DNA of 64,000 nucleotides from Patescibacteria group bacterium (GTDB lineage Bacteria; Patescibacteriota; Patescibacteriia; 2-12-FULL-60-25): NCBI GenBank assembly GCA_028715505.1, contig JAQURS010000004.1, positions 1 to 64,000 on the forward strand, read 5' to 3'. Position 1 is the stretch's first letter. Every line of letters starts with the position of its first letter. A program made the position numbers and the translations under genes. Below the pieces are notes generated by a model. It was not told where the DNA came from, made no database searches, and was given only the letters and a program-made list of their open reading frames with translations. Below are positions 3,798 through 64,000 of this stretch, piece by piece.

Positions 3798-4973
3798 TTA
3801 TTTGAATTGTTTGAAGATTTGCAGTTCCTCTTCGAGGAATCGGCTTCCCGCGAATTGCCACCACTGGTCAACGCATTTCCGATAGGCTTTCCGGAGGTCG
3901 AAATAGGGTTTTAGCTGCTCGACCGTGAATCCGCGGAGATCTCGTCCGTTGCCGTAGTATCCGCGTTGCAGATCAGAAAGCTTTTCGCCGATCGAATGGG
4001 CAGTCCGGTAAGCTCCATCAGCGTCGATCAGGAATGTCTCGCCAGGCCAGATGGACAAAGGGGCGTAGATGAATGGAATGTCTCGAAGAGTGAAGTGCAC
4101 TTCGCCGGGCGCAACACTTGCGCCCTTGAAGGCTTCTTTCATCTCGCGGCGGCTTGTCACAGCCGCCAGCTTGGCTAACTCCTGGTGCCTGTAGAGTCGG
4201 AAGAAAATTCTTTGCTTGCCATCCGTCTGTCCGTAGCGTCGGTAGATAGTCTGTGTTTGCTTCCAGAAGGCAGAGAGATTCGGCTGTTCCAAAGCCTCGA
4301 GGTGCGGCTTGGCGGGCGTGATGGTCGAGACGTGGAGCTCGTCAATGAGTCCTCTTCCGAAGAGCGCGTCGGCGGCTGCTTCAAGCCGGTCGTGATTGAG
4401 CTTGGTTATGGTGAACAATGAAGTCACCCTGCCGTTCGTTACTTCCCTGGCCACCTCAAGACCTCGCATGGCTTGTTTGTAAGCCTTGGGCGAACGTCGT
4501 TGTTTGTTGTGCGCCTCCTCATCCCCGTCCACCGAGATATCCAGCCAATCAAGTGTGAGGTTTTCTTGGCGGAAAGCATCGAGATGTTGCGTGTAGCTCC
4601 CGTTGTCGATTAGGCCGACCTTCAGATCCGGACGAATGCGCTTGGCTTCCGCCATGACGCTAATGTGCCAAGGATGAATGACGCGTCCTTCGTGCAAAAG
4701 CAGGGGATTGTTGCTGGGGAGCTGTTTTACTGCGCTTTTAACCAATTCTGGAAGGACTCTCCGTGAGCAGGCCTCGGTCGACTTGCTTGGCGGATAAATG
4801 CAGTGCGCGCATTGCAGGTTGCAACCGCGCTCGAAAGTCACCGAACACATTTCCGGGATTTCTTTTCTCAACGCCTGAAGCATGAGGCGGACCAGTTCGG
4901 TTTGGGTATGACCGGTCTTTCGTCTGGTCGCCAGGGCGTACCAATAATCGGTTGAAAAAAGTGCTCGTTTCAT
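3798..4973 (-). CDS. Radical SAM enzyme, 391 aa, next to a repeat peptide
   Basis: The CxxxCxxC motif that binds the SAM [4Fe-4S] cluster is present as C51-x3-C55-x2-C58 (CNLQCAHC). A strand with DISVDGDEEAHNKQR around residue 145 matches the DG..x.H...R segment common in peptide-modifying radical SAM proteins of the PqqE/SPASM kind. The paired cysteines of a C-terminal SPASM domain are absent. The ATG at 4973 has GGGAGG 7 nt upstream; a longer frame from 5222 would overlap the peptide gene. The gene follows the 62-residue peptide gene by 67 bp in the same direction. I infer a peptide-modifying role, but the substrate is unproven. Confidence 0.85.
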   Translation of the reverse strand: MKRALFSTDYWYALATRRKTGHTQTELVRLMLQALRKEIPEMCSVTFERGCNLQCAHCIYPPSKSTEACSRRVLPELVKSAVKQLPSNNPLLLHEGRVIHPWHISVMAEAKRIRPDLKVGLIDNGSYTQHLDAFRQENLTLDWLDISVDGDEEAHNKQRRSPKAYKQAMRGLEVAREVTNGRVTSLFTITKLNHDRLEAAADALFGRGLIDELHVSTITPAKPHLEALEQPNLSAFWKQTQTIYRRYGQTDGKQRIFFRLYRHQELAKLAAVTSRREMKEAFKGASVAPGEVHFTLRDIPFIYAPLSIWPGETFLIDADGAYRTAHSIGEKLSDLQRGYYGNGRDLRGFTVEQLKPYFDLRKAYRKCVDQWWQFAGSRFLEEELQIFKQFK

Positions 4974-15110: not shown

Positions 15111-16328
15111 ATGACCAACACTACCCAGCTTCCCCCCGGATTTTACGGCTTAGGCATCGCGCCTAAGCTTTTGGAAGTCCTTTGGAAGCTCAAGTTCAAA
15201 ACGCCCACGCCCATCCAGCAGAAATCCATTCCCATCGCGGTTGAGGGGAAGGATATTATCGGCGTGGCGCAAACCGGCACCGGCAAAACGCTGGCTTTCG
15301 GCATCCCGCTCATCCAACGTTTGGCGCAGGTCAAAGGCAGGGGACTCGTCATCTTGCCGACGCGCGAGTTGGCCCTCCAGGCTGACGAAGTTTTCCAGCA
15401 AGTTGGCCGTTCCATCGGCTTGCGCACGGCGGTTCTGATCGGTGGCGCGTCGATGAATATACAGATTAAGGATTTGAAAAAGAACCCGCACGTGCTGATC
15501 GTGACGCCGGGCCGGTTGATCGATCATTTGGAACAAAAGACGTTGCGGTTGGACGACGTTAAAGTTTTGGTTTTGGACGAAGCTGACCGCATGCTCGACA
15601 TGGGCTTCGCGCCGCAAATCAAAAAGATCCTCGCCGCCTTGCCGCGGGATCGCCAGACCATGCTTTTTTCGGCCACCATGCCAAGCGAGATCGTGAAAAT
15701 CGCGAGCACTTACATGAAGCTGCCCGTGCAAGTCGAGATCGCCAGGCCCGGCACGGCGGCGGAAAAGGTCACTCAGGAGCTTTTCGTGGTCAACAAGGAA
15801 GATAAGGTCCGACTCTTGGATAAAATTTTGGATGAACACCGCGGGTCGGTTTTGGTTTTTACCCGCACTAAGCACGGCGCCAGCAAAGTCGCGCGTTCGG
15901 TGCGCGCCATGGGCCACACGGCTGACGAAATCCATTCCAACCGTTCTCTTCCGCAGCGACGCAAAGCCTTGGATGGCTTCAAGTCCGGACTCTACCGAGT
16001 CTTGGTCGCGACTGACATCGCGGCTCGCGGCATCGACGTCAAAGGCATTGAGCTTGTCATCAATTACGACCTGCCGGATCAAGCCGAAGATTACGTACAC
16101 CGCATCGGACGCACCGGGAGAGCGGGGGAATCGGGCCACGCCATTTCGATCGCCACCCCGGACCAGCGCAAAGAGGTCATGGCTATCGAACGGCTGACTC
16201 GTTCGTATTTGCCGATTACAAAAAATCCGGATTTGCCAGGCGCCCGACCATTATCGAAACCGGAACGCGCGCGTGAGCCAAGCCGCGGTCGTCGGAGTCC
16301 GCCGAGACATTTCAGGCGGAGGAGATAG
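15111..16328 (+). CDS. DEAD-box RNA helicase, 405 aa
   Basis: All core motifs are present: Q motif (FKTPTPIQQKSIP), AQTGTGKT, PTRELA, TPGR, DEAD, SAT, and HRIGRTGRAG. The short tail (about 30 residues) is Arg-rich. The size and tail resemble RhlE-type helicases, which remodel rRNA and mRNA. The ATG at 15111 is chosen over a GTG at 15105 because a -10-like TACACT ends 7 nt before it. The gene converges with the next gene, with 1 bp between stops. Confidence 0.93.
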   Translation: MTNTTQLPPGFYGLGIAPKLLEVLWKLKFKTPTPIQQKSIPIAVEGKDIIGVAQTGTGKTLAFGIPLIQRLAQVKGRGLVILPTRELALQADEVFQQVGRSIGLRTAVLIGGASMNIQIKDLKKNPHVLIVTPGRLIDHLEQKTLRLDDVKVLVLDEADRMLDMGFAPQIKKILAALPRDRQTMLFSATMPSEIVKIASTYMKLPVQVEIARPGTAAEKVTQELFVVNKEDKVRLLDKILDEHRGSVLVFTRTKHGASKVARSVRAMGHTADEIHSNRSLPQRRKALDGFKSGLYRVLVATDIAARGIDVKGIELVINYDLPDQAEDYVHRIGRTGRAGESGHAISIATPDQRKEVMAIERLTRSYLPITKNPDLPGARPLSKPERAREPSRGRRSPPRHFRRRR

Positions 16329-16329
16329 A

Positions 16330-17187
16330 TTAATCCTTTTTGGCTTGCTGGCGGTAAGAATTTCCGGCTGGAAAAATATCCAGCCTTTTGTCGAATTCTT
16401 CCAAGGTTTTTTCGAGTTTTTCTTTAATCGATTGGATCCTGGTGCGGACCGCTTCGTAGCCGTATACGTCGTCCGGGGGCCGTTGCCCGTTGATTATCGG
16501 GATAAATTCTTTGGGAATAGAACCTTTGACCGCCAAGGCCCAATATTGCGAAACTTCACTCAAAAATTCTTCGGCGTCTTCCACTACGAGCGTCCCAGAT
16601 TTGAAACGTTTGGCCCATAAGGCCTGTTTTTCGTTTTCTTGTTCGTCGGCGTAATCGATGTCGCGGGTTTTTTCCAGAAATTTCAGGAATTTTTCGTTAT
16701 CGCATAAGTCTTCCATGAAATCAGACCAGATTTTGTCCCACTTTTTTTGCTCCGGGCTTTGGGCGTGGAGCCCGTCGTCTTCCAAACCGTAGACTCGACG
16801 GCTGTCGATGGACTGAATTTTGGCGGAGGTTCCATTTAAGGGGAAGTAAATTATCGTTCCGCCATCGTCATTCAGTTCGTTAAGGGATCCAGAAAAAAGA
16901 TTCCGTTTGTCTTCGTTGGTTTCGTAATAAATTCGGCCCTCATGGTCGACGCGGCTCACCACGATTTGCTTTTCATGATGCATGCTCCCGCCTTTTTGAA
17001 GATGGAAAGATCGGCCGTCAGGCAGGCCGAAATCCATCGAAGGGCTGTCCTTCATGTCGTACCGGAATACGTGATCCGAAGTTGAATCATGAAAAGCCTG
17101 TAAGTCCATCAAGCTTTTCCAGGTCAGGTCTTTTTCGGGCAAGTTTTCTTGGCCGGCAAATGGATTTTTCGGTTTTTCGAAACTCAT
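16330..17187 (-). CDS. Hypothetical protein, 285 aa
   Basis: I do not recognise this protein. It is soluble, acidic and rich in aromatic residues in the middle, with a helical charged C-terminus (RTRIQSIKEKLEKTLEEFDK). No signal peptide, membrane segment or metal motif is visible. A -10-like TACAAT lies 12 nt before the ATG. A terminator of the upstream gene (17215-17236) separates it from that gene, so it has its own promoter. Confidence 0.7.
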   Translation of the reverse strand: MSFEKPKNPFAGQENLPEKDLTWKSLMDLQAFHDSTSDHVFRYDMKDSPSMDFGLPDGRSFHLQKGGSMHHEKQIVVSRVDHEGRIYYETNEDKRNLFSGSLNELNDDGGTIIYFPLNGTSAKIQSIDSRRVYGLEDDGLHAQSPEQKKWDKIWSDFMEDLCDNEKFLKFLEKTRDIDYADEQENEKQALWAKRFKSGTLVVEDAEEFLSEVSQYWALAVKGSIPKEFIPIINGQRPPDDVYGYEAVRTRIQSIKEKLEKTLEEFDKRLDIFPAGNSYRQQAKKD

Positions 17188-17214
17188 AACGATTCGATTG
17201 TAGCATTAAACCAA

Positions 17215-17236
17215 TAAAAAAACCCCTTTTGGGGTT
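17215..17236 (-). terminator. Terminator of the helical-repeat gene
   Basis: AACCCC-TTTT-GGGGTT (17221-17236) is followed on the minus strand by a T run; it overlaps the stop codon of the gene ending at 17235. Confidence 0.8.
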
Positions 17237-18089
17237 AGTTGTTGAGTCGAGCGAGGTACAAATGGACGTAGGCCAACGAACGCCTTTCGGGATCGCGGAT
17301 TTTTTCCGCCAGCTCCCGTGCCTTGCCGACCTGGTATTGGCATGAATAGCCGATCGAGAAGTGGTGGTTGTAATGATCGGGTTCGTCGTCGAGCGGAACT
17401 TTCAATTCCTCGGCTTTCGCGAGTGCGAGGTCGGTCAGGCCCGTTCCCGCGATCATGCGGATCTCGTTGGCGATCACCATGGCCGGGGCTTGGAGTTTGA
17501 TGAGCCGTTCCAGCCGGGCTTTCCTGCTCATCTTCAACCACGCCGCCTTGGCCACCCAGTAGGAGTCGTTGGAACGGGCGATGAAGATGAACTCGTGGCC
17601 GATGTGCTCGCCAAGTTCCTTGGCGTTTTCATCGGAGATTCCCTGAAGCTGATCAGTGGTCTGGTCCAGGAGGAGCTTGTCTATCGCCGCCTTCGTCTGA
17701 CGGGCGAAGAAGATCCGCAGTTTGATCAGCAAAAGAATGTCCGGGATATCCAAGCAGGCTTCCCGGGCTTGGGGCAACTGTCCTTTCGCGAAAAACCAAA
17801 CGGCCCGATAAATTGTCGGCCAGGCCTTAGGATTTTTCATTGCGCCGATGGCCGCCCCGAAGTTCTGAATGTCTTTCTGATCGAAAGTGCTTAGGCACAG
17901 ATCGAGCAGGACAGGAGCCTTGAAGTCTGGGTCATTAATCTCATAGATCATGGCACGGGCCAGCTCCGGATCTTTCGGGATTACTTCCGAAGCCATCCTC
18001 ATGAAGGCGCTGTCGCGGTCCGATTCGGCGCACGTGTGGGCGCACTTGATCGCTTCTTGGATGTCAGCATCGTTCAACGCGGTTGTCAT
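17235..18089 (-). CDS. Helical-repeat protein, 284 aa
   Basis: Repeating units of roughly 35 residues with an A..I..P.....A..L..L pattern (LARAMIYEINDPDFKAPVLLDL, ARELAEKIRDPERRSLAYVH) suggest a TPR- or HEAT-like solenoid. No catalytic motif is present, so a scaffold or protein-binding role is the most that can be inferred. The start has GAGG 8 nt upstream, and a TTGACA-17-CAGTCT promoter lies at 18129-18157. Confidence 0.65.
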   Translation of the reverse strand: MTTALNDADIQEAIKCAHTCAESDRDSAFMRMASEVIPKDPELARAMIYEINDPDFKAPVLLDLCLSTFDQKDIQNFGAAIGAMKNPKAWPTIYRAVWFFAKGQLPQAREACLDIPDILLLIKLRIFFARQTKAAIDKLLLDQTTDQLQGISDENAKELGEHIGHEFIFIARSNDSYWVAKAAWLKMSRKARLERLIKLQAPAMVIANEIRMIAGTGLTDLALAKAEELKVPLDDEPDHYNHHFSIGYSCQYQVGKARELAEKIRDPERRSLAYVHLYLARLNN

Positions 18090-47660: not shown

Positions 47661-47751
47661 CCCCCGTCCATTCTAGGATTGACGGGATCGCATTTCTATG
47701 CTTAACTGAGCTATCAGATTAAGGGAGATGAACCTTGAAAAGGAGGCCATT

Positions 47752-48240
47752 ATGAATGGCTCAACTGCCAACATCATCGTCGTACCCGATCTCTCGCCCG
47801 TCAAGCTCGTAGCTCAAGCCAAGAAGAAGGCCAGGCTGACCTACCTCAACCCCAACCTCAAGACCAGGAATTTCTGTGCATACCGGGTAGAGAAGGATGA
47901 GCCTGCGAGAGTTCTGGAAGTGCGTGGTAAGAAGTACGAAGTGCTGACCTGGAAGCCTGGCGAGTACGTCACGACCGAGCAGGTGAGGAATCACTTCAAG
48001 GTTTTGGAAGCGGACGGCAACACAGCTGCTTTCATTACCTGGATCTCTAAGGTTAGGCCTGTTGGTTTCCATACCTCCGTCCCAAGTGATGACGCCTTGC
48101 TCTTCTGCGATCCTGACGGCAGCTTCTACGCCCCGATTTTCAGCTGCGTCGAGACCTGCCGTCATCTGGACCTGCGCGACGTCGACAATGGTTGGGATGA
48201 CTACTGGGTGTTTGTGGCCTTCCGCGAGATTACTTCATAG
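47752..48240 (+). CDS. Hypothetical protein, 162 aa, tandem paralog 1
   Basis: Closely related to the next gene: both share IIVVPDL, a LAQA..KARLT.LNP.LKT.NFC.YRVEK segment, ARxLEVRGKKYEVL, GNTAAFI.WIS and SDDALLF. The ATG at 47752 has AAGGAGG 5 nt upstream. No family is known to me. The protein is soluble, with conserved aromatics, and five of its six cysteines are in the C-terminal part. A promoter TTGACG-17-TTAACT is possible at 47679-47707. Confidence 0.75.
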   Translation: MNGSTANIIVVPDLSPVKLVAQAKKKARLTYLNPNLKTRNFCAYRVEKDEPARVLEVRGKKYEVLTWKPGEYVTTEQVRNHFKVLEADGNTAAFITWISKVRPVGFHTSVPSDDALLFCDPDGSFYAPIFSCVETCRHLDLRDVDNGWDDYWVFVAFREITS

Positions 48241-48269: not shown

Positions 48270-48755
48270 ATGAGCGGCTCGACTGATATCATCGTCGTAC
48301 CCGATTTGCCGACCGTCGAGCTCTTAGCTCAGGCCGAGAAGAGGGCTAGGCTGACCCACCTCAACCCTGACCTCAAGACCTGGAACTTCTGTGAATACCG
48401 GGTCGAGAAGGGCGAGCCCGCGCGAATTTTGGAAGTCCGCGGCAAGAAGTATGAAGTGTTGCTCTGGAGATCTGGCTACTACGTCGTGACCGAGAATGTG
48501 AGGGACCACTTCAGGGCTTTGGGAGCGGACGGTAACACGGCAGCTTTCATCGCCTGGATCTCGGAGGCTGAACTTAGTGGTGGCATTTATGCTTCAATCC
48601 CGAGCGACGACGCCTTGCTCTTCCGCTTTCCTGACGGCTACCTCTGCGCCCCGACTTTCAGCTGCGACGGGGCCGACCGTCGGCTGTACCTGCGCTGCGT
48701 TGGGCATGTTTGGCTTTACGACTGTGCCTTCGTGGCCTTCCGCGAGATTCAATAA
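48270..48755 (+). CDS. Hypothetical protein, 161 aa, tandem paralog 2
   Basis: A paralog of the preceding gene with roughly 60% identity by eye over the first 110 residues and greater divergence in the C-terminal third (PTFSCDGADRRLYLRC). AAAGGAG precedes the ATG by 7 nt and the gap between the genes is 29 bp, so they form one operon ended by a strong terminator. The function is unknown. Confidence 0.75.
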   Translation: MSGSTDIIVVPDLPTVELLAQAEKRARLTHLNPDLKTWNFCEYRVEKGEPARILEVRGKKYEVLLWRSGYYVVTENVRDHFRALGADGNTAAFIAWISEAELSGGIYASIPSDDALLFRFPDGYLCAPTFSCDGADRRLYLRCVGHVWLYDCAFVAFREIQ

Positions 48756-52083: not shown

Positions 52084-53916
52084 ATGTCCTCCACCAAAGA
52101 AAAGAAAAAAATTGAAAAGACAGTGGTGAAATCAGCCTTCGGATGGCTGGGAGCCATAGTTGGCGTGTTGGTTTTAATTGCCGTTTTGGCCGGAGGCGGC
52201 GTGTATGCCTATACCCGGATCTATTCCAACCGGATTTATCCAGGGGTTAGGGTTCTGGGGGTGAGATTGGACGGACTGACCAAAGAAGAAGCTAGGAAAC
52301 AATTGGACAAAGCGGTCGACGCTTCGCTTGAAAAAGGTTTGACTTTCGCTTTAGACGGCCAGCAAACAAATATACAGATTTCCAGTAACAGTGATTTGCC
52401 GGATCTCGTCCGTTTCGATTTGAATGACGCGGTCGATAAGGCTTATCAAGTAGGGCGCCAAAACGCGGCCGTTAAAATAGTGCTCGAAATTTTGGCCGCC
52501 CGGATTCATCCAAAGTCCGTTCCGGTCAAGACGGAAATCGACGACGAAAGAATCAAGCAGGCGCTCGAAGTCCAGTACGCGGAGAACCTACCAGCCCCGG
52601 TCGACGCCACCTTTGCCATCGAAGCCAAACCCGGTACGGAGCCCAAGGTAAAAGTCATCGCCGACAAGAACGGCCAAGTTTTGGACATGGCCGGAGTCTT
52701 TGAAAAGCTTAGGCAGCAGGCTTCGATTTTGGCCTTTCAGCCAATCACGTTGCGCGTTCAAAAGATACCGGCCAAGAGGCACGCGGCCGATCTCCAGCCC
52801 TTGATCGACAAGGCCGAAGAAATGCTTCACCGTCCCTCGCTCGCCTTCACTTACGACAATAAAACTTACAAGATTTCGACCTCTACTCTGGCCGGCTGGA
52901 TCACGGCCGACGAGTCCGACAACGTGACTTTGGACAACATGGCTTTCGCTTCGAGTATCCGCATGTTGGCCAAGAACGTTGAAGTCGAAAGCAAGAACGG
53001 TAATTTGCAAACCAAAGACGGCAAGATTGTTTCTTTCACGGCTTCAACCGTGGGCCGCAAGATTAATATCGAAAAAACGCTGGCTCCGGTTTTGACTTCA
53101 TGGCCGCCATCTTCGACTTTCCCGTTGATCGTTGAAGAGGAGAGGGGAGAGATAACGGGCAGCGATTTGGAGCAATATGGAATCAAAGAGTTGATCGGCG
53201 TGGGCAAATCAAATTATGGGAATTCACCGCCCAACCGCATCAAAAACATCAAGAAAGCCGTTTACGAAAAAGTGAACGGCGTGTTGATCGCGCCCGGAGA
53301 AGAGTTCTCCATGCTAAAGACGTTGGGTGAAGTGGATGGGGCGCATGGTTGGTGGCCGGAGTTAGTTATAAAGGGCGATAAGACGACGCCCGAATTTGGC
53401 GGGGGATTGTGCCAAATTGGCACGACCATGTTCCGCGCCGCTGTAGATACGGGTTTGCCTGTAACTGAAAGGCGCAACCACTCGTACCGCGTCAGTTATT
53501 ATGAACCGGCCGGAACGGATGCCACGATTTACGAACCCTCGCCCGATTTTAAGTTCATGAACGACACCGGCAAGTACATCATCCTGAACGCTTACATACA
53601 AGGTACGCAAATCTTCTTTGAAATGTGGGGCACTAAGGATGGACGCCAAGTAAGCCAGACTAAACCCAGGATCTACAACATCGTGCCCGCGCCGCCCACC
53701 AAGCTGACTGAAACCGAAGAACTTGAACCCGGCAAAAAGAAGTGCACGGAGTCGGCCCACGCCGGCGCTGACGCGGAATTTTCAACGACGGTCGAGTACG
53801 CCGACGGTCGAAAACGCGAAGAAACCTTCTCGAGCCACTATCGTCCCTGGCAAGCGGTGTGCTTGATTGGCGTGCCCAAAGGCACTTTGGGATCAACGAC
53901 GAGTACCGCGCAGTAA
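52084..53916 (+). CDS. VanW-family protein with peptidoglycan-binding-type domains, 610 aa
   Basis: A membrane anchor (about 18-43) is followed by two YoaR/PG_binding_4-like domains (YPGVRVLGVRLDGLTKEEARKQL... and a second around residues 235-330) and the VanW domain (about 370-500: GEEFSMLKTLGEVDG, GGGLCQIGTTMFRAAVDTGLPVTERRNHS). A short Cys-containing C-terminal module ends the protein. It probably acts at the cell wall; the exact role of VanW is unknown. Confidence 0.88.
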   Translation: MSSTKEKKKIEKTVVKSAFGWLGAIVGVLVLIAVLAGGGVYAYTRIYSNRIYPGVRVLGVRLDGLTKEEARKQLDKAVDASLEKGLTFALDGQQTNIQISSNSDLPDLVRFDLNDAVDKAYQVGRQNAAVKIVLEILAARIHPKSVPVKTEIDDERIKQALEVQYAENLPAPVDATFAIEAKPGTEPKVKVIADKNGQVLDMAGVFEKLRQQASILAFQPITLRVQKIPAKRHAADLQPLIDKAEEMLHRPSLAFTYDNKTYKISTSTLAGWITADESDNVTLDNMAFASSIRMLAKNVEVESKNGNLQTKDGKIVSFTASTVGRKINIEKTLAPVLTSWPPSSTFPLIVEEERGEITGSDLEQYGIKELIGVGKSNYGNSPPNRIKNIKKAVYEKVNGVLIAPGEEFSMLKTLGEVDGAHGWWPELVIKGDKTTPEFGGGLCQIGTTMFRAAVDTGLPVTERRNHSYRVSYYEPAGTDATIYEPSPDFKFMNDTGKYIILNAYIQGTQIFFEMWGTKDGRQVSQTKPRIYNIVPAPPTKLTETEELEPGKKKCTESAHAGADAEFSTTVEYADGRKREETFSSHYRPWQAVCLIGVPKGTLGSTTSTAQ

Positions 53917-55153: not shown

Positions 55154-58100
55154 ATGAAGTTTAAGGAAAGCTTGAAAATTATCGTTGCCGGTCTGGCGCT
55201 GCTTTCCTTTGGCGCGGCTTTGCTTTCTCCGGTCGCGCCGGCTTGGGCGCAAGCATACGCCGTACAAGATCCGGGGACTTCTCCGCCGTACGACGCCAAT
55301 CCCCAGAATTGCATAATCCAATTAACGACAGAGTATGGCGCCCCACAAGGCACGGCGCCTGGTCCTTTGATGACGAAGGATTACGCAAATATTCAAGCTC
55401 AATATTACGCTTGCTGGAACGCGGCCGCGGCTAAGCAGCAGGATTGGTGGTACCGTCGTGCCCAGTATTTAAAAAATCAATGGAGCATGCGTTTCATTAC
55501 TTCCATTTACGGAGGGTTGATAGACGCCATGGCCATGATTTCGCAACGCGTCGCCTATGAGGCCGCGAATGATTTGCTAACCGGCAATCCGGGAAACGAA
55601 CCCAGGTTTTGGAATTCTGATTTTAGCACCTGGCTCGAAAATGCCGGCATGGATGCCAGTAGTAAATTCCTTGATCGTTTGGACGTGGTGGTGGGGGATT
55701 GGACGTCCAGCCAAACGGCGACAGTCGATCCAAAGACAGGCAGGGTGATTCCAGGTCCTCGGTTTAGTTTTTGTAAGCCGCCCGATCCATACTCATTAAA
55801 ATTTTCATTGGGCGTCGGGGAAGTTGGTCGCATTGGGCCGGGCGCTTGTAACCTCAAAAAAGTTGCCGAAAATTTCCAAGCCATTGGGGATATGGTTAGT
55901 TCGGGCGAGGCACTTCAGTTGCACCGCCCGAGCGTGCAGTACGGAGCCAGTGACCTTTCGGTGGGGGTCGAAACCAATTCGCAATATTTTAATTATCTCA
56001 TAAACCAGCGAGCTGGTTTGTCTTTGAACCGCCAGGAAGATCGCGGATTAAGACCGGTTATGGATATCGTGAGCGGCAGAATTCAAGTTCCCACCGTGCT
56101 AGCGGAGCAAAGTTACAGGGATTTGAATCCTACCAGCATGGCTATCAGCTCCGAGGCAGAACAGCGGAGTGCTATTTTGGGCGCTTACTTCCAAGTTGGT
56201 TTGGAAAATATTCCGATGCTGGCTTTGCAGACTTTTTCGAATACTTTGATAGTCGGCATGTTGCATAAGTGGCTCGATCCAAAAGCGGGCGGAGGTTTGG
56301 ATAATAGCGCCAGTCCTCATCAAATCATTTTGACGGCTGAAACCTTAAAGAACGCCGATGCCACCGGTGAAGCGCAGGATTTATATGAGAGACAGGAATT
56401 CGCGAAATCTTTAGGCGATTATTTGATCCCGAACTTTGCGTCCACTGAAGATCAGGATATCGTGAGCGAACTCGTAACCTGCAATATTCCCCGCAAACGC
56501 TTTAATTGCGCCATGGACCAGGCCTTGGGCGTGGCCATTAACGTCGGCACGCGAGATGGCGCCTTAACCGTTGGCCGGGCTTCCGGGGTGGGCAGCCAGG
56601 GCGCTACTTTTAGCGTGGCCTCGCAAGCTTTGCATTCCGCTTGGGAATTGATTCCCGAGAGCGACATAAAAAACAATACCGATCCCACTTGCGCCCAGCG
56701 CGCTTATTGCGCCGGCAACTTAAAGAAGATGAGGCTGGCCCGCATCATTCCGATCGGATGGGAAATGGCGGCCAATTCTCCTTACAACATCAAACATAGC
56801 GGCAAGTACATAACCTTAGGCGAAGTAATCGGCGGGTTTTACGATTGTAACGATCAGGGCAAGATCGATAAGGAACATCCTTGGTGCCATCTGATCGATC
56901 CGAATTGGATACTTACGGCGCCCAAGTACCAGTGCCGGGCCAAGGGTTACGGCGACGCGATCCTGCCGGAAGTCGGAACCCGTCTAGAAGAGTGCGGTGA
57001 CATGGTTAGTTGCCTTAAATCGAATCAAAACGGCGAATGCGTCGGCGGTTTCGGCTACTGCTTGGCGGAAAGGCCGGTTTGGAAATTCGACGCCAAAGAA
57101 TGCGACGAGCAATTCGTGAGCTGTCGCACTTACCAATATTCCGGAGGACAAGTTTCCCTATTGCGCAATACGGAAGACAAGGGCAAATGTTCGTCAGAAA
57201 ATATTGGGTGCCAGTGGTACGCCACGAGCAGGTACGCGACCAGCACCGCCTCGCCGGACGGTTTATGGGTGGGGACTGCCACTAGCGGCCCCAGGGTTTA
57301 TTTGGATAAAGGCGTCCAGCCGTGTTCCTCGGAAGGCTGCACGAAGATGTTCCGGATAACCCCAAGCACTTCGACGACTACGGCCCAAAGCGTATTGAAC
57401 TTGGTTCAAAACGGATCATTTGAACAGGCCGACACGAGTAACCAAAACGGCAATATCGTCGTCACGGGCTTTCCGGGATGGACGCTGTTGCATAGCAACG
57501 AAGCGTGTCTGCCCTTTAAAGACCTGAGTTCTTCTTTGGCGGGTTCATCGGTCGATGGAAGCAGGGCCTTGAAGGCCTTTTGGCCAACCGGTTGCGCGGG
57601 ACCCCAGCTGGTTTATCAATATATTCCCATCGTAGGCGGCAGGAATTACGTTTTGAGTTTCAATATCCGCTCAGACCAGCCGACGAACAACGGTAGCCGT
57701 GTCCAATTCCAAAGCTTGGCCCAAGATGGGACTTACAAACCGATCTCTGATCAAGTTTCGACTTACGGGGATTGCGCTTGGGTTGGCAATGGTGGTTATA
57801 TTTCGTTCAATAAACAAGCCGGCAACGGTTGGTCCAAGATGGTTTGCCAGTTCGCCTCACCTCCTGGCGCTTCCAGGTTAGTGCTGGGCTTATTGGTCGC
57901 TCCCCAAAGTCAGGATGCTTTGGAGTTCGACGCGATTCAGTTGGAAGAAGGCGAAGTCGTGACGCCTTTCGTTGATGGCGTGGCCCAAGGCTTGGCCGAA
58001 ACTTATCTTAAGATCGCGCCCGACGAGTACCGTTGCACGGGCGACGATAAGACTGATAATCCGGCTTGCAAACGTTTTGCCCGCGTCTGCCGTCAAATCG

Positions 58101-61100
58101 ACGTCGGTTGCCAGGGCTATCAAGACGCGAACGATGTGACCGCCCCCGAAGTGCCGGCCATCCTTTCGTCCAAAGATTTGTGTCCGGCCATGTGCGCCGG
58201 CTACGGCGAGTATCGGAAACTGGCTTCAACTTTCGATTTGGTCAGGGATTCCGCGCACCCGGTTTTTGACGATCCCGAAGATGAGACTTCGGCTTATTTC
58301 ATACCTAACCTATCCGAACAGTGCGCCTTGGAAGACGTGGGCTGCGAACCGTTCACCAGCATGGAATCCGCCACGAGCACGGGCGAGAAGGTCGCGTATT
58401 TCAAAGACGTCAGGCTTTGCGAAAAACCGGGAGACCGTTCGGCCACTTATTACACCTGGGAAGGATCCGAGACTACGGGCTATCAACTTAAGACTTGGTC
58501 CCTGATCGCCAATACCCTTGATCCATCTCAAACAAATTCAAGCGCGCCCAAACTAGTTTTGAGGGGAGGCATGCTGGGTTACATAAAAGATCCGGCTTCG
58601 TGCAACGCGGACAGTTGGAAACTGGGATCGGATCCTGATTGCCGTCAGTTCTACGGGGTGGGCGGACAAGTGTATTATGTCTTTTATTCTCAGACCGTTT
58701 CTTCGGACGCGGCCTGCACCAATTACCGCAAAGACGATTCGACGGAAGCCGATTGTACCAAGACGGGCGGATCGTTCGTGGATGCCAGCAAATCCTGCAC
58801 TTACCAAGCATTGCCTTCGGAAAGTTTGACGTGTTCGGAAGTGGCCGGCGGATGTCGGGCCTACATGGGCCCGACCGGCCGCAACGCGGTCAACGTGTTT
58901 AGAGACACGTTCGCCACCGGCACGCAGATTTCTTTTGACAAACAGCAAGGCAGCAACACCACGCTGCAGTATTCCAACGAGTCGATATTGGTCGGAGATA
59001 AATCCCTCAAACTCGAAGCGCCGGCCGGCCAGAGCATCGACGCGACTTTGAAGTTGGCGATCAATACGACCAGCTCGCTCATGCGTATCTCATTCTGGGC
59101 GAAAGCCAACGCTCCCAAGAGCTCGGCTGATCAGCCAGCCAAAATCATGGTGGACGGAGTTGAGATTGGAACCTTCTTCCCGGACATCAATTGGTCGCGT
59201 TTCGAAGTCGGCCCATTCATGGCTAAGAACAATCCGACGCTGATCGAAATCGTCGCGCCCGCCAAAGCCGGCCAGGCCTCAAACGTCATTTATATTGATA
59301 CGTTCAGCGTGGACCAGCTTAATGACATCCGATTCGTGCGTAAAAACCATTGGGCCGTTCCGGTGGCTTGCGATTCGACGCCCGAAGGCGTGCCCGAGCC
59401 GCGTTACATGGTGGGTTGCCGGGAATACAACGATCGTAACAGTAACAGCGTCTTTGTCCGGAATTTCGGAAGCCTTTGCCGCGACGAGGCCATAGGCTGC
59501 AGCGCTTTCATCGACACCAACGACAAAGGCCAGCCTTATCCTGAAACCAAAACCGTCAAAGGCACGCCCTTGCCAATGGATTTTAATTTGAACACTTACG
59601 CCAAGCATGGCGCCGCTAAAATTTACGAAGAACAATTCTTTGGCGATTGGTCGGCCACCAGCCGGGGATACAGGTATTATTACGCCATCGACGACGCGCG
59701 CGGCCGGTGCGATTCCAGCCAAGCCTCGTGCCGGGCTTACGGCAAGCCGATATTCCAACAAGACCGTTTGCAGCTGGCTACCACGACCCATATTGTCAGC
59801 CCGTCCGAAACCGCGCTCTACAAATCGCAAAATAAAGTTTACGGATTTGAGACGACCCTTCTTAAAGACGACTGGGGTAAGTACCTGAAGGATAACGGGG
59901 AAAATGATCTGGCTTGCAGCAAAGACGAACTTTTCTGCGACCAATTCCAAAGCGGTAACGTCACCGAATATTTCCGTGATCCGGGCGTCCAGACGTGCAA
60001 ATGGAGCAAGGCGAAGAAGCTCAAGAAAAATGACGCGTACGGCATACCGTCCGACGGCGAATATTCCGGCTGGTTCCGCGAGAACACTGATATTCCTTGT
60101 TACGGATCCTACTTGGCCGCCGGCAACAATTACCTTATCCAATATTCCGGGGAGAAGGATTACGCCGGTTGGGGCGGGAAGTGCCCGACGGAACAGAGCG
60201 AGTGCACCGAGTTGGTCGATCCTAACGATACCTCCGATACGACCCATCCGGCTGGCCGCTCGTATTACGTGATTAACGGGCCAAAACTTGATAAATCTTC
60301 TTGCGGTGGCACGGCTGACCCGCTTTCGGGCTGCATTCTTTTCCAGGACAAGGGGATAGGCACGCTCGAAGCGAGCAGCCAGGCGACTTATTCAAAGATC
60401 ATGAAAGAGAAGGGCGCTTCTCAGGTGCCGCTCAACTGCGAAACTGATCCTGAAAACGAGTATTGCAAATCCGCCCGTAAATGCACGGCGCTTTCCCCAA
60501 GATATAACGACAACTTCACGGTCGATCCTGGCGACACAGTGGGCGCGGAGCAAAACCAATCCGGTTTCTACAAAGACTGGGTCAAGTCGCTCAAAGAGAG
60601 CAAACTGGAGGGTAAAGTGTGCGTCCAAGATTCGGATTGCCAGTCGGAGGTTAAGATTGTTTCCCGCTTGGGCAAGCAATTGACGTTGGGCTACATCGAG
60701 GGCAAGTGCCCACCGAGCAGCAACGACGCCAACGTCGTGTTAAAGGTTAAGATGGACCGCGAATGCGCCCGTTGGATGGGCTGCAGGACGGGCGAAACGG
60801 TTTTTGACTCCGGACAAAACAAGTTCGTCACCCAGTGCACGGAGATGAACATCTGCGAACAAAACGGTTCGCGTAACGAAGATATCTTCTGCAGTAAGTT
60901 CACGGATCGTTACTACGAGGATCTTCTGTCTTACGGCCAGTATATAGACGCCCAAAGTTACAGCGGACGTGACGTGGGTTTCGGCAAGATGGATTATTCG
61001 GGTTTGATTTCACCCGACCATTATCTCGCGGCCGATATCAAGCCCAGGGCGGTCGGTTACGACTTGCTTAAAGGGTCAAAGTCCGGCGACCGTTACATTT

Positions 61101-64000
61101 ACGACCAACGCGCCGTGGCCGAAGTTTCGGAAAATGACCTAAATATCGAGACTGGAATCAAAGATCCCAACTTCAATGTTTCGGGTTTGGAGTTGTGTAA
61201 AGACAAGAGGACCGGCCGCGTGGGCTATCTGGCTGATCAGCTTTGCATCCTGCCGATCTCAGAACCGACTTCGCTCATGTTGGTTGCCGGACAGGAAACC
61301 CAGGATACGTCCAGCGACGTGGCTCAAATTTACAAGGCTTTCGAAATAAACAACGCGGGTGGCGGGAACAACCTTCTCCAGAGCGCCATGCCTTCTCCGG
61401 AGTGCCAAGTTTATCCCGAGGAAAATTCTCCGTTGCCAAATCAGTACGTGGCGGAATGGAACATTAATGCTAATCCGCCCAGCCCAAAGAGGATGGCTGA
61501 GGGATACGATAACGCCTCGGCTTGCGTTTACGGCGAGGACTGCTCATGTTCTTACCGCAAGGTGCGTTATTCGGGCGGTCAGAAATATTACGCTTTAGAC
61601 GGCGCCGCTCCGGCCGTTGGCGTTTGCATGGGCGGTGATTTGGACGGCCAAGCTTGCGTCCCGGGAGGTTACGTGGCGGTGGGCGAAAAGAACAAGGTTA
61701 TCGCGAATTCAAACATAACGGATACGTGTAAAGGAGGAGTGTGCCAGACTATTCAAGACGTGGTCTCGGTCTTCGGCAAGTACGGTTATTGTTTGGAACG
61801 TGATTTGACCAGGATAAGCAGCGCCGCCCAGATCATGGCGCCTTGCCTGACTTGGAGTCCTATGTCTGTTTTGGGCGGCAAGTTCGACGTTACCCATCGT
61901 TCGCCGACGGCCGGTTACCAACCGCCGCAAGGCATGGGCGAATATTATTGTTCGAGCGGAGCTAACGTCCAAAAGCTCATTACTCCGAGCGTGACCACGG
62001 CCTACGTGGGCGGCTACATCAAACATTGGGCAAACGAAAATTTCATCGCCCCGGGATATCTGCAGCAGTTCGCTTTTTCCAGGCCGGATGTTTGGTATAA
62101 CAAACAATCAAATAATTACAGCAACAAATTTATAGATGGCAGCGATAATAAATATAGCAGCACTAAGTTGGATGAAACGGCAGCCACGCACACCCGCATG
62201 GTCGGGGATGAAACTAAGAACTTACGTTTCACTTGCCGCCGGGCTTCGGTTTGCGAGGGGTTCAAGTACCTTAACGATGATATAAGTGAAGATTGTAACG
62301 GCGACGCCGCCAACAGGACAGCCGCTTTTGGAAAATGCGAAGGGGCTTCAGATAAATTGGGTCTTTGGATCACTACCGGGGGCGGCCTGAGTCGTTCGTA
62401 TCTTGAATATTTCATTCCTTACAGGCCGAGCTTTGAAAGCCTGCAATACGACGCTTTGCGTCCGGACGCCAAATACTTTGATTATAGGTTTGGTCTCTTT
62501 AGGCTTAGCCTCCATCCTAATGCCATCGGGTCGGCTTGTTTGTGGAATCCCAAATGGTTTGGTTTAGATTACCCAGTGGTCAGCCAGGATAAGAAAACTG
62601 ACTTCTCATGTTCCGAGTTCTTGTCGCAAGTGCAAAACCTATCCAGCCAGATTTACCAAACCGCCAATCAAAACTTCCCGTTAATTTTGGACCGCGGATC
62701 GGAGAAATTGCTGGCGGACACGCAGGGAGTCCCGTATAGGCTTGGTTGTCTCGGTAATAACGTCGGCTCAGCCTGCTACTTTAAATATTGGCAAATCGGC
62801 TTTAACGACCAGGATCAGAAAGAGTTCAATTGGATAGACGCCGGCGGGTACAAGGATACGCCTGAGAGCTTCAGATGGGAGAAGGTTTATCAGCTATGGT
62901 ACGGCCAGCAGTGCAGCGCCAGTCATCCGTATTTCGCGATTAGGGCCGTGTTCCAAAACGTTAATCCGGCCGAAAATGTGCTCGAACCGGACGAAGCGCG
63001 CCAAACTAAACTTTCCGGTCCTTGGCAGTTCATAGGCTTCTGGGTGACTACGTGCATGCCGAACCAGGTATTAAATGACCCGGGCAACATGTATTTGCAG
63101 ATGGATATGGTCAAGGCGGACGTCTGCAAGGAGGTTTCGCAAGTCGTCGCGCCGTACACACGTGAGAACGCCGCTTTCGCGGACAGGGTTTGGGCCCAAG
63201 GAAGGTTCATGCTGCCGGTTTTGGGCATCCAATACAATTCGCCCAACGAACCGTTTGGTTCTGCCTTGGCCACTCGGCAGATTGGTAATGATCCCATGCT
63301 CATGGGAGCTTCGACGCCGCTTTCCGGTGATTATCTCAAATCTCCAACCTTCGTCGATTCAGGGTTGACCATGCAGAGCATCTTCAATGATCGGCAGAAC
63401 TCGTGGATGCCGTTGTCTAACTTATTCGCCAGGATTTATAAGGTTTACCGTTGGTCTCCTTACACCGTGAACGCGGGAGATTGGGCCTGTATCAAAGGCG
63501 ACAAAATGGCCAATAAATGTACTCCGGGTTCCAATACCTTCCAGGGATTATTGGATTGCGGCGATTATGCCACTTGTTCCGACGAACTGGATACGGATTT
63601 GATTAACCAGGACTGGCGATGCAATGCCCTGTCGGGCGTTAACCGTGGATTGAGCTGTGGTACGACCAATAACTGGCAGATACCCACTAGGAATTCAGAT
63701 CCGATTTGCCATAACGCGGCGGTCTACGCCCGTCTTGATCCGGCTAGTAATACCCGCGTCGAAAAATGCAGTGAACAGGACACGTCCTCTTGTATTTTAG
63801 CCAATCCGGGATGCAAACCGGCCGACAATGCTCATCCGAGTTTGTTGAGCTACACGATAAATACTAAAGGTTATGATCCTAATAACAAGGACTTTATTGT
63901 TTATTTCAAGCCTCACGTTTGTCAAAACAATTCATTCTACGCCGAACCGACTTTAGAAAAGAATAATGGGTTATATGTCGTGAATGCCAATTGGTCGGAC
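55154..64000 (+). CDS. Giant exported Cys-rich protein, at least 2,949 aa (cut by the window edge)
   Basis: The frame stays open for 2,949 codons to the right edge. A signal peptide (MKFKESLKIIVAGLALLSFG..., cleavage after AWA near residue 33) directs export. Cysteine is frequent, often as Cys-x5-6-Cys followed by Tyr or Phe. Two jelly-roll-like modules resemble CBM4/9-type carbohydrate-binding domains (QNGSFEQ...GFPGWTLL and later GDKSLKLEAPAGQSI). No catalytic motif was noticed. It starts 3 bp after the calcium-loop gene without a Shine-Dalgarno site. It is likely a disulfide-stabilised surface fibre or adhesin; this is inference from architecture. Confidence 0.8.
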   Translation, partial: MKFKESLKIIVAGLALLSFGAALLSPVAPAWAQAYAVQDPGTSPPYDANPQNCIIQLTTEYGAPQGTAPGPLMTKDYANIQAQYYACWNAAAAKQQDWWYRRAQYLKNQWSMRFITSIYGGLIDAMAMISQRVAYEAANDLLTGNPGNEPRFWNSDFSTWLENAGMDASSKFLDRLDVVVGDWTSSQTATVDPKTGRVIPGPRFSFCKPPDPYSLKFSLGVGEVGRIGPGACNLKKVAENFQAIGDMVSSGEALQLHRPSVQYGASDLSVGVETNSQYFNYLINQRAGLSLNRQEDRGLRPVMDIVSGRIQVPTVLAEQSYRDLNPTSMAISSEAEQRSAILGAYFQVGLENIPMLALQTFSNTLIVGMLHKWLDPKAGGGLDNSASPHQIILTAETLKNADATGEAQDLYERQEFAKSLGDYLIPNFASTEDQDIVSELVTCNIPRKRFNCAMDQALGVAINVGTRDGALTVGRASGVGSQGATFSVASQALHSAWELIPESDIKNNTDPTCAQRAYCAGNLKKMRLARIIPIGWEMAANSPYNIKHSGKYITLGEVIGGFYDCNDQGKIDKEHPWCHLIDPNWILTAPKYQCRAKGYGDAILPEVGTRLEECGDMVSCLKSNQNGECVGGFGYCLAERPVWKFDAKECDEQFVSCRTYQYSGGQVSLLRNTEDKGKCSSENIGCQWYATSRYATSTASPDGLWVGTATSGPRVYLDKGVQPCSSEGCTKMFRITPSTSTTTAQSVLNLVQNGSFEQADTSNQNGNIVVTGFPGWTLLHSNEACLPFKDLSSSLAGSSVDGSRALKAFWPTGCAGPQLVYQYIPIVGGRNYVLSFNIRSDQPTNNGSRVQFQSLAQDGTYKPISDQVSTYGDCAWVGNGGYISFNKQAGNGWSKMVCQFASPPGASRLVLGLLVAPQSQDALEFDAIQLEEGEVVTPFVDGVAQGLAETYLKIAPDEYRCTGDDKTDNPACKRFARVCRQIDVGCQGYQDANDVTAPEVPAILSSKDLCPAMCAGYGEYRKLASTFDLVRDSAHPVFDDPEDETSAYFIPNLSEQCALEDVGCEPFTSMESATSTGEKVAYFKDVRLCEKPGDRSATYYTWEGSETTGYQLKTWSLIANTLDPSQTNSSAPKLVLRGGMLGYIKDPASCNADSWKLGSDPDCRQFYGVGGQVYYVFYSQTVSSDAACTNYRKDDSTEADCTKTGGSFVDASKSCTYQALPSESLTCSEVAGGCRAYMGPTGRNAVNVFRDTFATGTQISFDKQQGSNTTLQYSNESILVGDKSLKLEAPAGQSIDATLKLAINTTSSLMRISFWAKANAPKSSADQPAKIMVDGVEIGTFFPDINWSRFEVGPFMAKNNPTLIEIVAPAKAGQASNVIYIDTFSVDQLNDIRFVRKNHWAVPVACDSTPEGVPEPRYMVGCREYNDRNSNSVFVRNFGSLCRDEAIGCSAFIDTNDKGQPYPETKTVKGTPLPMDFNLNTYAKHGAAKIYEEQFFGDWSATSRGYRYYYAIDDARGRCDSSQASCRAYGKPIFQQDRLQLATTTHIVSPSETALYKSQNKVYGFETTLLKDDWGKYLKDNGENDLACSKDELFCDQFQSGNVTEYFRDPGVQTCKWSKAKKLKKNDAYGIPSDGEYSGWFRENTDIPCYGSYLAAGNNYLIQYSGEKDYAGWGGKCPTEQSECTELVDPNDTSDTTHPAGRSYYVINGPKLDKSSCGGTADPLSGCILFQDKGIGTLEASSQATYSKIMKEKGASQVPLNCETDPENEYCKSARKCTALSPRYNDNFTVDPGDTVGAEQNQSGFYKDWVKSLKESKLEGKVCVQDSDCQSEVKIVSRLGKQLTLGYIEGKCPPSSNDANVVLKVKMDRECARWMGCRTGETVFDSGQNKFVTQCTEMNICEQNGSRNEDIFCSKFTDRYYEDLLSYGQYIDAQSYSGRDVGFGKMDYSGLISPDHYLAADIKPRAVGYDLLKGSKSGDRYIYDQRAVAEVSENDLNIETGIKDPNFNVSGLELCKDKRTGRVGYLADQLCILPISEPTSLMLVAGQETQDTSSDVAQIYKAFEINNAGGGNNLLQSAMPSPECQVYPEENSPLPNQYVAEWNINANPPSPKRMAEGYDNASACVYGEDCSCSYRKVRYSGGQKYYALDGAAPAVGVCMGGDLDGQACVPGGYVAVGEKNKVIANSNITDTCKGGVCQTIQDVVSVFGKYGYCLERDLTRISSAAQIMAPCLTWSPMSVLGGKFDVTHRSPTAGYQPPQGMGEYYCSSGANVQKLITPSVTTAYVGGYIKHWANENFIAPGYLQQFAFSRPDVWYNKQSNNYSNKFIDGSDNKYSSTKLDETAATHTRMVGDETKNLRFTCRRASVCEGFKYLNDDISEDCNGDAANRTAAFGKCEGASDKLGLWITTGGGLSRSYLEYFIPYRPSFESLQYDALRPDAKYFDYRFGLFRLSLHPNAIGSACLWNPKWFGLDYPVVSQDKKTDFSCSEFLSQVQNLSSQIYQTANQNFPLILDRGSEKLLADTQGVPYRLGCLGNNVGSACYFKYWQIGFNDQDQKEFNWIDAGGYKDTPESFRWEKVYQLWYGQQCSASHPYFAIRAVFQNVNPAENVLEPDEARQTKLSGPWQFIGFWVTTCMPNQVLNDPGNMYLQMDMVKADVCKEVSQVVAPYTRENAAFADRVWAQGRFMLPVLGIQYNSPNEPFGSALATRQIGNDPMLMGASTPLSGDYLKSPTFVDSGLTMQSIFNDRQNSWMPLSNLFARIYKVYRWSPYTVNAGDWACIKGDKMANKCTPGSNTFQGLLDCGDYATCSDELDTDLINQDWRCNALSGVNRGLSCGTTNNWQIPTRNSDPICHNAAVYARLDPASNTRVEKCSEQDTSSCILANPGCKPADNAHPSLLSYTINTKGYDPNNKDFIVYFKPHVCQNNSFYAEPTLEKNNGLYVVNANWSD

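Follow-up and report, generated by a model that had tools for sequence, protein, structure and literature searches.

A gene at the end of the window, by which we mean the whole stretch of 64,000 nucleotides analysed here, encodes a giant exported protein that probably represents the ABY1 form of a type IV secretion system (T4SS)-locus component, enlarged into a glycan-binding arm for contact with a host cell (probability about 0.6). Because the front end of the giant is related to this T4SS-locus component, which has no name and is called X below, the giant is probably the arm by which the machine grips other cells. The genome, 1.07 Mb in 28 contigs, is one that we take to belong to the class ABY1 (Uhrbacteria-type), from its named relatives and from general knowledge of lineage placement.

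The window corresponds to C4:1-64000 of a contig of 82,388 bases. The giant gene forms a single ATG-started frame with 2,949 stop-free codons inside the window, and on the same contig the frame continues to a proper stop at C4:68560. The complete protein has 4,468 aa, among them 160 Cys, and the window holds its first two thirds. A preliminary description of the window had proposed an exported protein with nearly 3,000 residues free of stops and had named a frameshift or stop just beyond the window as the observation that would speak against it; the assembled full gene bears out the proposal, since the frame reaches its stop intact, and truncation or a frameshift can be ruled out. The N-terminus (MKFKESLKIIVAGLALLSFGAALLSPVAPAWAQ) resembles a signal peptide with one hydrophobic segment, and no membrane segment was found in the giant beyond it, which was also true of nearly all its relatives. 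The C-terminus (...LNPLQGLKLDFSKFFKLK) carries no LPXTG cell-wall anchor in its last 40 residues. The features are collected in Table 1.

Table 1. Positions of the giant's domains, of its neighbours in the window and of two gene types at T4SS loci (positions without a prefix are those of the window)
Feature	Position	Strand	Remarks
VanW-type protein, judged not to be part of the system	52084-53916	+	VanW models
Calcium-loop (TSP3-like) single-TM protein, 258 aa	54374-55150	+	Conserved partner gene; weak TSP3-type matches
Giant exported protein, residues 1-2949 of 4468	55154-64000	+	ORF ends at C4:68560, outside the window
Signal-peptide-like N-terminus, residues 1-33	55154-55252	+	Lone hydrophobic segment, then APAWAQ (AxA-like end)
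Helical N-terminal domain, residues 34-480	55253-56593	+	Homologous to T4SS-locus protein X by profile match; model mostly helical
Most conserved Cys-rich core, residues 500-743	56651-57382	+	Invariant Cys across 22-77 relatives
Predicted CBM-fold jelly roll 1, residues 744-934	57383-57955	+	Predicted model compared with solved CBMs
Cys-module region, residues 935-1243	57956-58882	+	Motifs at residues 979, 1057, 1227
Predicted CBM-fold jelly roll 2, residues 1244-1390	58883-59323	+	Predicted model compared with solved CBMs
Cys modules, residues 1391-1722	59324-60319	+	Motifs at residues 1442, 1519, 1588, 1677
Variable, less conserved Cys-rich part	60320-64000	+	Leads to the C-terminus beyond the window
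u411/u477-type genes	L042:15068-16303, 16290-17723; L135:13742-15481		Between virB6 and prgI

The relationship between the giant and X emerged from 20 T4SS loci of classes other than ABY1, which were picked by VirB6. Most of these loci had a calcium-loop gene followed by the exported protein X, virB6 and onward, with X in the slot that the giant takes in many ABY1 orders and measuring about 290-750 aa (1,959 aa in one case). When the N-terminus of the giant was compared with one group of X proteins in hhalign, the match had Prob 96.9 and E 1.6e-10, and with a larger alignment of giants (A6 against A3) it rose to Prob 97.3 and E 2.5e-11; as controls for the first comparison, X profiles that had been reversed or shuffled, and profiles of other T4SS families, stayed at Prob 0.3 or below. 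A profile of X built only from non-ABY1 proteins matched the N-terminus of the giants in three ABY1 genomes (E 2.7e-6 to 8.2e-6). In the other direction, a profile of the giant's N-terminal domain was run against 30 non-ABY1 genomes selected for having VirB6, where a match was free to fall anywhere in about 1 Mb; eight genomes were matched, the best at E 1.4e-15, and all eight matches lay immediately upstream of virB6. For the X groups B, C and D, the profile matches to this domain were not convincing, and the homology was seen only for a subset of X. High-Prob matches between the non-Uhrbacteria N-terminal set and X covered one column and were disregarded as hhalign artefacts. On this profile evidence, the N-terminal domain of the giant and the X of T4SS loci in other classes are homologous. 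What follows the domain is an ABY1-specific extension in which about 2,000-4,000 residues were gained, made up of the Cys modules, a pair of jelly rolls with a CBM fold and a C-terminus that is PKD-like.

Several of the X proteins deserve separate mention. One X from another class carried an fn3 domain at its C-terminus, so the gain of adhesion-type modules by X may be a wider habit. The VirB5/TrbJ families were not listed for X at E 5 in Pfam or E 1 in NCBIfam, searches in which filters drop weak matches; another X showed a sub-threshold match of 25 residues to DUF4141 (E 0.002). At one non-ABY1 locus (G059, L161:8723-14602), the protein of 1,959 aa in the X position had 27 Cys and VirB6 had 22 Cys, perhaps through an independent enlargement. 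At another (G058, L171:10919-13900), the match to the giant's N-terminal domain fell just upstream of a separate ORF of 791 aa with 12 Cys that precedes virB6, so that here X and an extension form separate genes.

Gene order in ABY1 itself ties the giant to the T4SS in many lineages. At many non-Uhrbacteria ABY1 loci, downstream of the giant came a gene resembling VirB6/TrbL, then two unknown genes, and then prgI, trsD and virB4. The full series from the calcium-loop gene through the giant, virB6, u411, u477, prgI and trsD to virB4 was contiguous in one genome (G029), and shorter runs in the same order were found at many other non-Uhrbacteria loci. Among the 34 named loci with 4 kb of downstream sequence, 15 had virB6 next to the giant. 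At locus L042, PrgI was recognized by Pfam at E 7e-7 and TrbL/VirB6 weakly at E 0.006. In Uhrbacteria-type genomes, the window genome included, the giant did not adjoin virB6. VirB4 ATPase was found in 37 of 38 relatives, and the copy of the window genome (G000:C3:84674-86479) was clustered with VirB6, PrgI and TrsD on C3 (L135:10661-18503), away from the giant on C4, so the arrangement is split in Uhrbacteria-type genomes. This separation would be expected if the giant were a free-standing surface or envelope protein, an adhesin or an S-layer-like coat whose gene merely neighbours T4SS genes elsewhere, and a surface coat would also fit its size, its many Cys and its jelly rolls. However, the N-terminal domain is homologous to a protein encoded beside virB6 in other classes, and the shared gene order is kept across distant classes, so we consider a free-standing protein unlikely. 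The u411 and u477 genes, which lie between virB6 and prgI in ABY1 and in other classes and have no clear Pfam family, are candidates for new T4SS components. One further locus (L173, in G366), which lacked both a calcium-loop gene and an X gene, had a pair of VirB6-like genes together with small 3-TM proteins in an array, and resembled the pilin arrays of Saccharimonadia.

The preliminary description had grouped the giant with the calcium-loop membrane protein and the VanW protein encoded upstream into a possible attachment structure. The tie to the calcium-loop protein was supported. The start codon of the giant lies 3 bases past the stop of the calcium-loop gene in the window, and a calcium-loop gene was directly upstream of the giant on the same strand at 65 of the 71 named loci that could be tested. 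All detected copies (102/102) were on the strand of the giant, most of them within a few bases of it, and across 113 giant loci the calcium-loop gene was the immediate upstream neighbour nearly throughout. The VanW gene behaved differently, being on the same strand as the giant in 20 cases and on the opposite strand in 11, and it adjoined the giant only in Uhrbacteria-type genomes; we therefore excluded it as a partner. An Hsp20 gene near the giant also switched strand and was likewise confined to Uhrbacteria-type loci. Two calcium-loop-type ORFs of 578 and 270 aa precede the giant at locus L100, which may be a real change or an assembly error. Elsewhere in the window, two adjacent and similar ORFs of 170 and 161 aa (47728-48240 and 48270-48755) are probably a tandem duplication.

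The giant was not confined to the window genome. Named relatives that carry it include Uhrbacteria, Falkowbacteria, Komeilibacteria, Kerfeldbacteria and other ABY1-type metagenome-assembled genomes, and its absence from related genomes, which had been put forward as a reason to doubt it, was not what we found. A search with a profile of the core (A1) detected it in 222 of 237 ABY1 genomes that were at least 90% complete, representing 190 of 202 genera; the core typically lay in a single long frame. Across 380 genomes sampled from the phylum, all listed ABY1 members (33/33) matched the core, as against 17 of 347 genomes of other classes, in which the matches were short and weak and mostly over the jelly-roll segments; a full-length giant was found in none of the 347. 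Near-universal in ABY1 and represented elsewhere only by weak local matches, the core is a hallmark of the class. The complete giants that were measured ranged from 1,560 to 4,620 aa, most having 2,500 aa or more. VirB4 was still present in 14 of the 15 ABY1 genomes with no match to the giant, so a T4SS may exist where no giant is detected; gaps in the assemblies are another possible explanation, and in many of these genomes virB4 lay only a few kb from the beginning of a contig, which makes assembly breaks likely but does not prove them. At locus L118 the giant was in two frames, with ORFs of 1087 and 733+ aa, again either a real change or an assembly error. An apparent frame of 26,141 aa beside the giant in G459 (L174-L178, G459:C8:8001-80000) was an artefact, produced by a 72-kb stretch masked as N. 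No relative of the giant was found in viral contigs and a phage or viral origin was rejected; in NCBIfam, jelly roll 1 weakly matched a head-spike-fibre domain of phages.

The anatomy of the protein was examined with profiles and predicted models. The N-terminal helical domain has two invariant Cys, and the part of it aligned in the match to the X profile spans about residues 136-358 (55559-56227). A model of residues 34-745, of medium confidence, had no meaningful match in Foldseek or VIA-align and none in the PDB, and matches of the N-terminal profile to PDB sequences of coronavirus nsp8 (E 0.1 or more) were taken as chance hits of helical sequence. The predicted structure had a pLDDT above 90 across much of residues 434-600. 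The two jelly rolls were modelled together in residues 740-1460 with a mean pLDDT of 88.7 and a pTM of 0.75. In VIA-align, jelly roll 1 matched CBM16 (2zew) with Z 15.4 and an rmsd of 2.6 over 144 residues, and also CBM4-2; in some families of the giant, jelly roll 1 is missing from this place. Jelly roll 2 matched Clostridium thermocellum Xyn10B with Z 15.3 and an rmsd of 2.3 over 134 residues, and also CBM22. Profile matches to CBM22 and CBM4 chains agreed with these folds, and jelly roll 2 matched a CBM22 tandem at E 1e-9. The fold searches were dominated by the jelly rolls, and the Cys modules between and after them were barely covered. Residues 1800-4000 were variable among relatives, and a Cys-rich segment with DWGDG at residues ~4050-4330, outside the window, was conserved in most complete members; Pfam did not recognize it, so its PKD-like label derives from the motif.

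The window protein itself had no Pfam match, CBM_4_9 included, but CBM_4_9 was matched in 12 of 22 family members, and the carbohydrate-binding-like domains that had been suggested for the giant are well founded at the family level when these matches are taken with predicted folds at Z ~15 against solved CBMs. We take the jelly rolls to be CBM-type folds, as the models predict, and glycan binding may be their function. With their resemblance to CBM4/9, CBM16 and CBM22, they could also belong to a protein that captures or degrades polysaccharides to feed on glycans of the host or the environment. Neither Pfam nor NCBIfam revealed an enzymatic or catalytic domain in the giant, however, and the N-terminal domain is akin to a T4SS-locus protein, which makes a feeding role very improbable.

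A recurring Cys module had also been described, and the recurrence was real. The pattern as first written occurred 8 times in the part of the protein inside the window, whereas 2,000 shuffles gave 0.31 on average and never more than 4. The spacing of five to six residues between the two Cys did not hold, as all five of the quoted examples have six, and the pattern is better written as C-x6-C-x-x-[YFWL]. This motif had 9 copies at residues 650-1677 compared to 0.59 expected from shuffles, and in all 33 of 33 family members the motif count exceeded the maximum of their own shuffles (200 each). VKOR, a disulfide-forming enzyme, was detected in 26 of 38 relatives, the window genome included, and was not detected in the other 12.

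Beyond the homology and the gene order that the comparisons establish, we infer that the giant lies at the cell surface, binds glycans, makes physical contact with the T4SS and serves in attachment. It would be exported by Sec, and its N-terminal domain may dock on the outside of the machine, close to VirB6 and to the calcium-loop protein. Locked by disulfides, the extension would project as a stiff arm, and its CBM-type domains could then bind glycans on the host surface, resulting in a stable contact between the T4SS and the host cell. In Southlakia epibionticum (Saccharimonadia), the T4SS is essential for epibiotic growth, and so are several proteins with polysaccharide-binding domains (PMC10633639). 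A wider reading, to which we give slightly less than even odds, is that in ABY1 a small T4SS component has become a disulfide-stabilised, glycan-binding contact fibre of 2,500-4,600 residues, carried by a chromosomally encoded secretion machine, a dedicated host-recognition organelle in which the docking domain is fixed and the extension varies by lineage.

The giant could instead be a substrate of the machine, an effector that the T4SS sends into the host cell or places on it. It is encoded within the T4SS locus in many orders, and PF03432, the sole relaxase family searched, was found in 0 of 38 genomes, so that the cargo may be protein instead of DNA; conjugation was rejected on the same count. 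The main text of a survey of Patescibacteria T4SSs describes relaxases as scarce across the phylum (PMC12102498), consistent with this count for PF03432. In contrast, the signal-like N-terminal segment suggests that the giant itself leaves through Sec, it is a single class-wide gene that shares a domain with a small T4SS-locus protein, and an enzymatic domain was not found in it. Delivery as an effector is thus improbable, and the contact arm is the reading that we prefer. The members of ABY1 are probably host-dependent tiny bacteria known almost exclusively from metagenomes. Nearly all members keep this exported protein, to which a genome of ~1 Mb devotes 13 kb, and they presumably draw a large benefit from it; the link between the giant and the T4SS gives a concrete candidate for the host-contact device of the class.

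Exported proteins by which T4SSs make contact include the VirB5/TrbJ tip proteins, TraN and PrgB, and VirB5 genes adjoin virB6. Like these, the giant has a signal-like N-terminus and is linked to a T4SS; unlike them, it is far larger. In its last 40 residues it lacks the LPXTG anchor of PrgB-type adhesins, and neither it nor X had a match to the families of these proteins among the matches that passed the filters. No description of the giant family was found in the literature searched, which left most subscription papers outside. Giant exoproteins of the FhaB/DUF2341 type, reported as strain-specific and without full-length homologues, have been described for two ABY1 genomes, and Patescibacterium danicum, which belongs to ABY1, has such proteins (PMC11809585). 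They too are ABY1 exported proteins of over 4,000 aa proposed for adhesion (PMC11809585), whereas the present family is nearly class-wide and tied to the T4SS; Pfam domains of the FhaB or DUF2341 type were absent from three family members scanned at E 0.5. VirB6-4 of Anaplasma phagocytophilum is reported to have 4,322 aa and is likewise a T4SS protein of giant size in a host-dependent bacterium, but there the extension is on VirB6 itself (PMC7648143), whereas here the giant is a separate exported protein. The closest comparison is with the MPF_FATA-like T4SS of Patescibacteria, for which the main text of the survey reports VirB4, TrsD, PrgI, VirB6 and VirB2-like parts, states that a PrgB-type adhesin was not detected, and does not refer to any giant or large protein (PMC12102498). 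The loci studied here share the chromosomal set of virB6, prgI, trsD and virB4 described in that text (PMC12102498), come from genomes in which no PF03432 relaxase was found (38 searched), and in many cases outside Uhrbacteria-type genomes hold the gene for the giant or X within the locus. They differ in having the calcium-loop gene and X or the giant as additional candidate components, and the calcium-loop protein and X are thus suggested as two T4SS-locus components beyond those discussed in the main text of the survey.
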